From Chryseobacterium suipulveris (GTDB lineage Bacteria > Bacteroidota > Bacteroidia > Flavobacteriales > Weeksellaceae): a DNA stretch of 64,000 nt. Positions 1,686 through 3,951 of this stretch are shown one piece after another. The stretch lies in NCBI RefSeq assembly GCF_022811685.1, contig NZ_CP094532.1, forward strand, positions 1,389,501 through 1,453,500, written 5' to 3'. Both the position numbers and the translations under genes were made by a program. The stretch's first letter is position 1. Each line of letters opens with the position of its first letter. The notes beneath the pieces are model-generated. The model worked only from the letters and a program-made list of their open reading frames with translations. It was not told the origin of the DNA and did not search any database.

Positions 1686-2276
1686 ATGGAAATCGATCAA
1701 TTAAAAGAAATTTGGGAAAAAGATCAGGTAACGGAAACTCCTGAGATTTCGGTTGAAAACCAGGAAAAGCTCAACGATCCCCTGAAAATCGTGCAGCGCA
1801 ACCTGCGTTGGGAATTTTGGAGTATGATTCCTGTTTTTCCCGTTGTCCTATATATTCTGTACCGAACCATCCAAAATCAGGAATTGTTGATGTATGCAGT
1901 TGCTTTGGTTGTGGTTGCGATGATGGTGTGCGCTTTTTATGTCGTTAAGATTTACCGTTTTTATAGGGGGATTTCCAGCCACCAGTTTTCCAGTTACCAA
2001 CATTTGCTGGAGCTGGAGTATAAGATCAAATATTATCGCGACCTTTATCAGTCGTATTACGTTGCGTTTGTTCCCATCTTGTTATGCGAATATTTTTTAA
2101 TAATGGCTTTCGGTAAAGGTTTTCAGCACACCGATTTTCAGCTGCATTTTTGGACACTGATAATTTCGCTTGTTTTCTGTTTGGTGTCGCTTTTCCTTAT
2201 TTGGAAGCTTTGTTATCATTATTTCTACGGAATCCATTTTAAGAAAATTAGAGAGTTGATCAAGCAGATTCGATAA
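1686..2276 (+). CDS. Membrane protein, probable anti-sigma partner
   Basis: 196 residues, not recognised as a named family. Residues 1-40 are charged and soluble (starts MEIDQLKEIWEKDQ), followed by four hydrophobic segments at about 45-62, 68-88, 128-147 and 155-178, and a basic tail. The position directly behind an ECF sigma gene and a cytosolic segment before the membrane helices fit a membrane-bound anti-sigma factor. No zinc-binding anti-sigma motif (HxxxCxxC) is present, so the role is inferred from context only. A strong hairpin terminator follows. Confidence 0.8.
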   Translation: MEIDQLKEIWEKDQVTETPEISVENQEKLNDPLKIVQRNLRWEFWSMIPVFPVVLYILYRTIQNQELLMYAVALVVVAMMVCAFYVVKIYRFYRGISSHQFSSYQHLLELEYKIKYYRDLYQSYYVAFVPILLCEYFLIMAFGKGFQHTDFQLHFWTLIISLVFCLVSLFLIWKLCYHYFYGIHFKKIRELIKQIR

Positions 2277-2335: not shown

Positions 2336-3715
2336 TTACGTGATTGCAACTTCTTGTGGTTGAAGATTTTTGATTTTAGAAATACTGTTTTCAATTTCTT
2401 CTTTGGTCAACTTATGTTCTTCTAAATTTCCATTTTGATAATCCGAATACGCCATCATATCCACAAAACCGTGACCGCTTAGATTAAAGAGAATTGTTTT
2501 GGTAGTTCCTTCCTTTTTTGCGAGTTCCACTTCACGCAAAACCTGTGCGATGGCGTGATTGCTTTCAGGAGCGGGAATAATTCCCTCATATTTTGCGAAC
2601 AGACTTCCGGCCTCGAAACATTCAATTTGAGGAATTGCGTTGGCTTCGATAATTCCGTCTTTCAGAAGTTGCGAGCACAAAACACTTGCGCCGTGGTAAC
2701 GCAAACCTCCTGCGTGAATGGAAGCGGGCTCGAAATTATGCCCCAAAGTAAACATCGGCAAAAGAGGGGTATAACCTTGAGTATCGCCAAAATCGTACAT
2801 AAATTTTCCTTTTGTGAGTTTTGGACAAGAAGAAGGTTCGACCGCAACACAACGCACTTCTTTATTTCCCTGAAGTTTTTCCCTCAGAAAAGGAAACGCA
2901 ATTCCTGCGAAATTTGAGCCGCCTCCTAATGGAGCCACAATTACATCGGGATAATCTTCTGCCATTTCAAACTGTTTCAAAGCTTCTTCTCCAATAATCG
3001 TTTGATGAAGCAAAACGTGATTCAGAACCGATCCTAAAGAATATTTGGTGTGTTCATCCTGCACCGCCATTTCGACCGCTTCCGAAATTGCCATTCCCAA
3101 ACTTCCGCTGCTGTTGGGGTTTTCAGCTAAGAAATTCCTTCCCGCCTGAGTTCTTTCGCTGGGTGATGGAAAAACATTTGCCCCGAAAGTATTCATCATT
3201 ATTTTGCGGTAAGGTTTCTGGTTAAAACTCGATTTTACCATATACACATCGCATTCGATTCCGTACTGTGCGCAAGCGAAACTCAGTGCGGTTCCCCATT
3301 GTCCAGCTCCAGTTTCAGTAGTTATTTTTCTCACCCCAGCTTTTGCATTGTAGTAAGCTTGCGGAATCGCGGTATTCGGTTTGTGCGATCCGCTCGGACT
3401 TCCGCCTTCGTATTTGTAGTAAATTTTACAGTCGGTTCCCAATGCTTTTTCCAGTTCAAATGCTCTGATTAATGGCGAAGGTCTGTAGATTTTGTACTTT
3501 TCGAGAACTTCTTCGGGAATATCGATAAACCTTTCCTCAGAAACTTCCTGCTTGATCAACTCATCTGGAAAAAGTGGTGAAAGCATATCGGGACTAATCG
3601 GTTCCTTGGTTCCTGGGTGGAGTGGTGGCAGTGGTTTGTTGGGAAGATCTGCCACGATATTATACCATTTTTTTGGCATCTGATCTTCGTCGAGAAGAAA
3701 CTTTTTCTTTTTCAT
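2336..3715 (-). CDS. trpB2: TrpB-like PLP enzyme (tryptophan synthase beta, TrpB2 type)
   Basis: 459 residues, longer than the roughly 400 of ordinary TrpB, as in the TrpB2 class. The PLP lysine motif reads SGSHKPNTA, the phosphate-binding loop GGGSNFAG, and GAGQWG and SLGMAISEA are also family-typical. TrpB joins serine and indole to make tryptophan. TrpB2 proteins often lack a TrpA partner and may salvage indole; no trpA or other trp gene is next to it. The upstream leader peptide with tandem Trp codons and a terminator supports control by tryptophan and so supports the assignment. Confidence 0.93.
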   Translation of the reverse strand: MKKKKFLLDEDQMPKKWYNIVADLPNKPLPPLHPGTKEPISPDMLSPLFPDELIKQEVSEERFIDIPEEVLEKYKIYRPSPLIRAFELEKALGTDCKIYYKYEGGSPSGSHKPNTAIPQAYYNAKAGVRKITTETGAGQWGTALSFACAQYGIECDVYMVKSSFNQKPYRKIMMNTFGANVFPSPSERTQAGRNFLAENPNSSGSLGMAISEAVEMAVQDEHTKYSLGSVLNHVLLHQTIIGEEALKQFEMAEDYPDVIVAPLGGGSNFAGIAFPFLREKLQGNKEVRCVAVEPSSCPKLTKGKFMYDFGDTQGYTPLLPMFTLGHNFEPASIHAGGLRYHGASVLCSQLLKDGIIEANAIPQIECFEAGSLFAKYEGIIPAPESNHAIAQVLREVELAKKEGTTKTILFNLSGHGFVDMMAYSDYQNGNLEEHKLTKEEIENSISKIKNLQPQEVAIT

Positions 3716-3755: not shown

Positions 3756-3788
3756 AAAAAAAGACCGCCTGAAATACAGACGGTCTTT
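3756..3788 (-). terminator. trp leader terminator (attenuator hairpin)
   Basis: Read on the minus strand, the stem AAAGACCGTCTG / CAGGCGGTCTTT (one G-U pair) with loop TATTT is followed by seven U. It ends about 40 nt before the trpB2 start. Its 5' arm (3782-3775) can pair instead with TACAGGCG inside the leader (3857-3850), which gives an antiterminator. Confidence 0.88.
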
Positions 3789-3823
3789 ACAGATACTTGT
3801 AATATTTTCAATAATTCAATTCA

Positions 3824-3901
3824 TCAAATAATACAACGGGTGTGTAAATCGCCTGTAGAAAACGATTGCCACCACCAATTGTTATTTAAGAATTGTTTCA
3901 T
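3824..3901 (-). CDS. Trp leader peptide (25 codons, WWW)
   Basis: A short open frame, too small for usual gene callers. It starts at ATG 3901-3899 and stops at TGA 3826-3824. It begins MKQFLNNN and residues 9-11 are three consecutive Trp (TGG TGG TGG), a run expected only rarely by chance. It sits 24 nt or more behind a consensus promoter, ahead of a terminator hairpin and then trpB2. This is the classical layout of ribosome-mediated attenuation: stalling at Trp codons leaves TACAGGCG (3857-3850) free to pair with the terminator's 5' arm. The peptide itself probably has no other function. Confidence 0.88.
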   Translation of the reverse strand: MKQFLNNNWWWQSFSTGDLHTRCII

Positions 3902-3920
3902 TATTCGGTTAAATATGTTA

Positions 3921-3951
3921 CAAAAGTAGAAAATTATTTTTACTGACCAAA
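3921..3951 (-). promoter_or_regulatory. Bacteroidota-type promoter of the trp leader
   Basis: On the minus strand TTTG (3951-3948), a 19-nt spacer, then TACTTTTG (3928-3921). This is a full match to the consensus TTTG / TAnnTTTG. Transcription should begin near 3915, giving a short 5' end before the leader ATG. Confidence 0.82.

Follow-up and report, generated by a model that had tools for sequence, protein, structure and literature searches.

The window analysed here, a stretch of 64,000 nucleotides of Chryseobacterium suipulveris DNA, carries the gene trpB2 on its minus strand, preceded by a short leader element whose parts are listed in Table 1. The 459-residue product of the gene scores 623.9 bits against TIGR01415 (trpB_rel), over the cut-off of 518.85, and 153.2 bits against TIGR00263 (trpB), under the cut-off of 392.45, and it is therefore assigned to TrpB2; solved homologues of this protein, among them 6hul, 4qys and 6hte, are by name nearly all tryptophan synthase beta chains. 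Because the upstream neighbour on the same strand encodes a monomeric isocitrate dehydrogenase and an ORF of 196 aa (window 1686–2276, plus strand) faces trpB2 from downstream, trpB2 looks like a single-gene unit. The 196-aa ORF, for which no Pfam or NCBIfam match was found, adjoins a gene with ECF-type sigma-70 regions (1066–1560).

Table 1. Features of the trpB2 leader element and of the gene behind it, in window coordinates.
Feature	Position	Strand	Remarks
Promoter	3921..3951	−	TTTG 3951–3948, 19-nt spacer, TACTTTTG 3928–3921; Bacteroidota-type, from sequence reading
Leader ORF	3824..3901	−	ATG at 3901, TGA 3826–3824; 25 codons + stop, MKQFLNNNWWWQSFSTGDLHTRCII
Three tandem Trp (TGG) codons	3869..3877	−	TGGTGGTGG; proposed stall site; WWW invariant in 9/9
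1:2 hairpin	3847..3867	−	AATCGTTT 3867–3860 with AGGCGATT 3854–3847; predicted to lock strand 2; RNAalifold
Strand 2	3850..3857	−	TACAGGCG; putative antiterminator arm, 11 nt beyond the final Trp codon and still within the leader ORF
Antiterminator partner	3775..3782	−	CGTCTGTA; strand 3 + loop start
Intrinsic terminator (strands 3:4) + T run	3756..3788	−	stem 3788–3777 / 3771–3760, loop 3776–3772, T run to 3756
trpB2	2336..3715	−	459 aa; TrpB-like PLP enzyme, proposed controlled gene; TIGR01415

When the sequence was read again, the promoter, the 25-codon leader and the three TGG codons described in the initial annotation were recovered at exactly their coordinates, base for base. The promoter has the form TTTG-N19-TACTTTTG, which we take to be the Bacteroidota-type consensus, and transcription would start near position 3914. 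The same motif lies 6–22 nt 5' of the leader ATG in 8/8 trpB2 leaders that have enough upstream sequence (the window included; L058 was too short and was left out), whereas it occurs in 66 of 8000 mononucleotide shuffles. A terminator is present as had been claimed, although the span first given to it takes in the T run and the stem itself ends at 3760. The alternative pairing of TACAGGCG with CGTCTGTA also holds over its full length, all eight bases being paired, one of them as G-U. For the leader stretch of 186 nt the computed folding energy is −49.5 kcal/mol, whereas shuffles average −30.5 (z −4.95; 0/200 shuffles equal), and in the window alone the competing pairing is modestly unusual, its score being equalled by 28/1000 shuffles. 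Judged by sequence comparison, it is conservation in relatives, not the window alone, that makes this pairing secure.

Nine distinct trpB2 leaders were aligned: those of the window, of L031 (Chryseobacterium koreense, cultured) and of L002, L003, L032, L004, L005, L006 and L058. The reading of the initial annotation implies a Trp run and two competing stems that persist in relatives; N-x-N-WWW is kept in 9/9 of the aligned leaders, and compensatory changes preserve the competing stems. It was found that RNAalifold, run on the nine with no structure supplied, returns two helices, namely the terminator (3:4) and a hairpin immediately downstream of the Trp codons (1:2); the latter, which would hold strand 2 in the off state, had been missed in the initial annotation. 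Over the nine leaders, 168 of the 180 cells of 1:2 and 3:4 are paired (93.3%), with 5 pairs and 10 cells changed on both sides, and 0/500 shuffles were as high for paired cells, double-changed cells or covariation; double-changed pairs were equalled in 2/500 shuffles, and further pair types showed no excess over shuffles (430/500). Taken singly, the 1:2 hairpin has 93.1% of its cells paired and 2 pairs changed on both sides, and the terminator has 3 such pairs among the 12 counted. The competing 2:3 helix has 94.4% of its 71 cells paired (12/500 shuffles as high), a covariation of 0.233 versus 0.157 (9/500) and three cells changed on both sides (21/500), with no excess over shuffles for its one double-changed pair (392/500) or for further pair types (183/500). 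The pair at columns 47 and 139 of this helix is seen as AU, UA and GC, and when the partner is slid by 1–3 columns, pairing falls to 26–45%. Strand 2 begins 8–13 nt beyond the last Trp codon in 9/9 leaders, and the weakest single-leader 2:3 pairing among the nine is that of L058, with 214/1000 shuffles as high. As a side observation, the 5' arm and loop start of the terminator before trpB2 in L004 contain GCCGTCTGAA, which equals the Neisseria DNA uptake word and is taken here as a coincidence.

A promoter, an ORF and a terminator would alone suffice for a complete small gene, so the leader ORF could be read as a small protein gene of the usual sort that ends in a terminator of its own, trpB2 then being expressed from another promoter or by leak. 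Conservation, however, follows the RNA and not the peptide: the strand-2 word CAGRYGA (TAGACGA in L032) falls in frame 1 in seven leaders, in frame 2 in L003 and in frame 0 in L058, that is, in all three frames, and it is therefore the RNA that is kept, together with the competing stems. After WWW, the only residue kept in 9/9 is a Ser two residues on, the codon of which falls within strand 1, and the terminator starts 58–94 nt before trpB2 in all nine. A separate small gene is, against this evidence, highly improbable.

The element is very probably a transcription attenuator of the ribosome-mediated type, with Trp-tRNA as the signal sensed and trpB2 as the gene under control. From parts and a conservation that can be read directly in the alignment, we infer the working of the switch, including stalling at the Trp codons and the switching of trpB2. 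With no ribosome on the leader, or after the ribosome has read it and gone, the long hairpin would form and its tip (1:2) would hold strand 2, whereupon the terminator would form and trpB2 would be off. Under a shortage of charged Trp-tRNA, the ribosome would stall on WWW, and its front edge would cover strand 1, which starts just after the Trp codons, and stop short of strand 2; the freed strand 2 would pair with strand 3 while strand 4 has yet to be transcribed, blocking the terminator and allowing trpB2 to be transcribed.

These states were folded with the transcript ended before strand 4 and with assumed lengths of the ribosome footprint. With no ribosome, P(1:2) is 0.75–0.94 and P(2:3) at most 0.06 in 9/9 leaders, and when the A site of the ribosome sits at Trp codon 1 or 3, P(2:3) is 0.71–1.00 in 9/9. 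With the ribosome at the stop codon, P(2:3) is 0.78 in the window, 0.93 in L004, 0.77 in L058 and 0.56 in L006, and 0.23 or less in the other five; from the values of these four of the nine leaders, some read-through is therefore predicted in the Trp-replete state, and complete shut-off probably depends on departure of the ribosome, after which the long leader hairpin can form. Once strand 4 is present and the transcript is full-length, the terminator prevails in all of the states computed; as its completed form is the more stable fold, the switch would have to be kinetic. Capture of the terminator arm by upstream RNA is modestly above shuffles, ranging from 0/300 shuffles (L004) to 36/300 (L003), with 15/300 for the window.

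The genetic background of the controlled gene was read from the genome of the same organism, which is one contig and 99.88% complete. No match to trpA, trpC, trpD or trpF was found in it, each of these being found in 14/14 control genomes; nor was there a match to a second TrpB (trpB1), in a search made without control genomes. The same-genus genomes G026 and G048 have trpB1, trpC, trpD and trpF. Outside the window (L147/L148), the genome encodes a tryptophanase (NF053783, 833.3 bits versus a cut-off of 750) and a tyrosine phenol-lyase (TIGR02618, 765.1 versus 720.7). Because none of the other trp genes searched for (trpA, trpB1, trpC, trpD and trpF) was found, TrpB2 is read as a maker of Trp from indole, and it is probably the sole route to Trp in this organism, a salvage reaction that would join indole to serine. 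A Trp switch placed before TrpB2, in a genome where no other searched trp gene was found, points to the making of Trp as the use of this enzyme. The indole would most likely come from neighbours or from the cell's own tryptophanase, and a leader of this kind together with trpB2 would give a mark of indole salvage that can be read from a genome.

A tryptophanase in the genome and Trp residues in the leader also bring TnaC to mind, in which the nascent peptide stalls the ribosome on free tryptophan, and the leader could in principle stall in this way and not on uncharged tRNA. The peptide after WWW is hardly kept, however, and the direction would be wrong, since stalling would turn the gene on and the gene makes Trp, so that a stall induced by Trp would call for more of it. 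Such peptide-mediated sensing is extremely improbable; this reading and that of a small protein gene were both weighed and rated low.

A scan of a species-genome collection gave the best 80 of 95 loci encoding a relative, and searches at family and order level added more. Close homologues of trpB2 are rare near home, being found in 8/148 family genomes (own genome included) at identities of at least 59%. A Trp-rich leader lies before trpB2 in 28 of the 85 distinct loci with upstream sequence, as counted from ORFs with ATG starts and two or more Trp within 450 nt, with labels assigned by hand; ten loci with such an ORF were by hand counted as having no leader (L033, L037, L064, L067, L070, L071, L079, L105, L107 and L108), and leaders with non-ATG starts may be missed; L007, for instance, has an ORF with WRW that starts at TTG. 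Although the sequence upstream in L058 is just 219 nt long, this locus was counted since its leader is seen. Copies with the same protein were dropped (L034 = L006, L036 = L005, L086 = L004, L110 = L002, L141 = L062, L142 = L064), as were L102 (too short) and L101 and L146 (no upstream sequence).

Where the leader occurs, trpA is mostly absent: trpA is lacking in 22/28 loci with a leader versus 10/57 without one (Fisher p 1e-7, kinship ignored), whereas a tree-aware sign test gave a median p of 0.375 over 7 independent pairs. In these counts trpA was taken as present when a match exceeded 100 bits, the partial match of 27.3 bits in G877, just over the family cut-off, being counted as absent, and many of the trpB2 loci are in metagenome bins of unknown completeness. 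A proven link between the leader and the loss of trpA was rejected, Fisher's test ignoring kinship and the tree-aware median p being 0.375. On a quick TrpB2 tree, the nine aligned leaders belong to one clade of 11 (SH-aLRT 100), in which L068 and L069 are nested without a leader, trpA being found for L068 and not for L069. That the leader is a general feature of trpB2 was also rejected, since 57 of the 85 loci show none and since L068 and L069 have none within the clade that bears it. Other leader types form other clusters on the tree, a pattern that suits repeated gain and falls short of proving it.

Among these other types, 11 loci under the label B24 have a Trp-rich leader and a terminator; 2:4 pairing of at least 8 bp is present in 6/11 (L081, L083, L084, L085, L087 and L094; 116/1000 shuffles as high in L081) and is weak in the other five. 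In eight Bacteroidales-like bins (L089–L093 and L096–L098) a Trp-rich leader precedes trpB2 and no U-tract terminator was found, so that the output there may be translational or of another termination kind. The leader peptides of these eight read, for example, SWSWWWP or WWRSSR, and hairpin-like sequence follows them by eye. Other outputs may therefore exist in the wider set, which would favour control at the level of trpB2 translation or by way of Rho, the hairpin serving as no more than a brake. A strong terminator with a T run is, however, kept in the window and in each of its eight aligned relatives, and for the element studied here such control is very unlikely, transcription attenuation remaining the preferred reading. 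A broader proposal is that Trp attenuators have been placed before stand-alone trpB2 repeatedly, with differing antiterminator geometries, in Bacteroidota that have lost the trp operon and salvage indole, strand 2 in the present case being locked by a hairpin behind the ribosome; we give this about equal weight for and against.

Leaders of related design stand before trp operons in the same family. The Rfam family RF01692 (Bacteroid-trp) aligns to the element over model positions 1–131 of 131, with the UGG run within a long hairpin, at 31.5 bits (E 0.05 in 231 bases), under the cut-off of 49; there is no match to it in the own genome at E 0.001 and none in the window at the cut-off. Filing the element as RF01692 was rejected, its score lying under the cut-off. 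Among the 11 Rfam matches listed up to E 1 in the same 231 bases, none was to a T-box family. At E 0.01, RF01692 has matches in 44 of the 146 family genomes, those in 26 exceeding the cut-off, and is present in 14 of the 19 other same-genus genomes listed. Eight of these 14 trp-operon leaders were fetched, six being distinct; they read like MKTINNTNWWWPQNFQSLEHCSFV and lie about 155 nt before an ORF whose best family is TIGR00564 (anthranilate synthase component I), at 418.3 bits on the 459 residues given and under the model cut-off of 517.7. In G048 this ORF is followed by trpD, trpC, trpF and trpB in that order, and on the sequence evidence we call it trpE.

The six distinct same-genus trpE leaders (L125, L128, L131, L133, L136 and L137) and one from another genus (L124, genome G045) share WWW with the trpB2 leader. 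In all seven, the ORF likewise contains strand 2, TCAAAGTCTT, 11 nt beyond the final Trp codon, and this strand forms 10 bp with AAGACTTTGA of the terminator, that is, with strand 3 (0–8/200 shuffles as high). An antiterminator strand inside the leader ORF had been called unusual in the initial annotation, a view that does not hold, since the six same-genus trpE leaders do likewise. In all seven, the stop codon lies 39 nt past the last Trp codon. These leaders differ from the trpB2 leader in the letters of strands 2–4 (TCAAAGTCTT / AAGACTTTGA), and they head a trp operon, whereas no such operon was found in the own genome. In many other trp-operon leaders, strand 2 lies at 17–18 nt, at or just before the stop codon (21–27 nt), its partner being the loop of the terminator together with the 3' arm, mostly over 7–9 bp; a few fit neither geometry well. 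This second geometry was noted in most of L111–L123, L126–L132 and L160–L175, not in L119, L127, L128, L131, L161 or L174.

A model built from the nine trpB2 leaders (R1) has the window element as its sole match in the own genome (E 9e-27) and matches five further trpB2 leaders with E values of at most 1.3e-17; these six strong family matches are all the model's own input sequences and so no independent test. Among its weaker matches (E 1.3e-7 and up), 23 places were fetched, of which 21 have a trpE homologue downstream and 22 an ORF with WWW; at E 0.1, the model matched 126/146 family genomes, most of them weakly. Since a model made from trpB2 leaders also finds trpE leaders, the two are by sequence of the same broad kind, and perhaps of common descent. 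Together they would make up a naturally occurring collection of attenuators, with one sensing run coupled to two or more RNA geometries.

The E. coli trpL attenuator has tandem Trp codons and the pairings 1:2, 2:3 and 3:4, and the trpB2 leader is like it in parts and logic. In trpL, strand 2 is covered once the ribosome has reached the stop codon, whereas the stop codon of the nine trpB2 leaders lies 39–57 nt past the last Trp codon; because of this distance, it is more likely that strand 2 is locked by the 1:2 hairpin re-forming behind the moving ribosome than that it is covered by a ribosome at the stop codon. In Corynebacterium diphtheriae, attenuators before trpB2A are described in the excerpts of PMC1262725, likewise Trp attenuators before a second trpB, although that trpB2 sits in an operon with trpA and the likeness is by gene name. 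For Bacteroidota, available extracts of Weinberg et al. 2010 (PMC2864571) present Bacteroid-trp as a cis-regulatory candidate, those of PMC6414381 place it before the trp operon of F. psychrophilum, and those of PMC9723704 give clues to leader-peptide attenuation before amino-acid operons of that species. Excerpts of PMC4833913, PMC7366714, PMC1854888 and PMC2965389 hold nothing on a TrpB2 attenuator, and literature searches, partly among the best 10 to 25 of hundreds of results, returned no attenuator of a stand-alone TrpB2 in Bacteroidota.

The Trp attenuator reading of the initial annotation is thus supported by the conservation of the Trp run and of the competing stems, and its kind, trp attenuation, is already known and catalogued in Bacteroidota for trp operons (RF01692); the controlled gene, a stand-alone trpB2, and the link to trp-operon loss seem new. 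RF01692 and the trpB2 leader share their occurrence in Bacteroidota, UGGUGGUGG inside a long leader hairpin and the start of a terminator downstream. They differ in that RF01692 controls a trp operon, whereas the present element stands before a stand-alone trpB2, and in that strand 2 of the trpB2 leader pairs with strand 3, whereas in many of the relatives' trp-operon leaders it pairs with the loop and 3' arm. As far as sequence can tell, the element is most likely a genuine attenuator whose kind is known and whose location is new, apparently tied to the absence of the trp operon.
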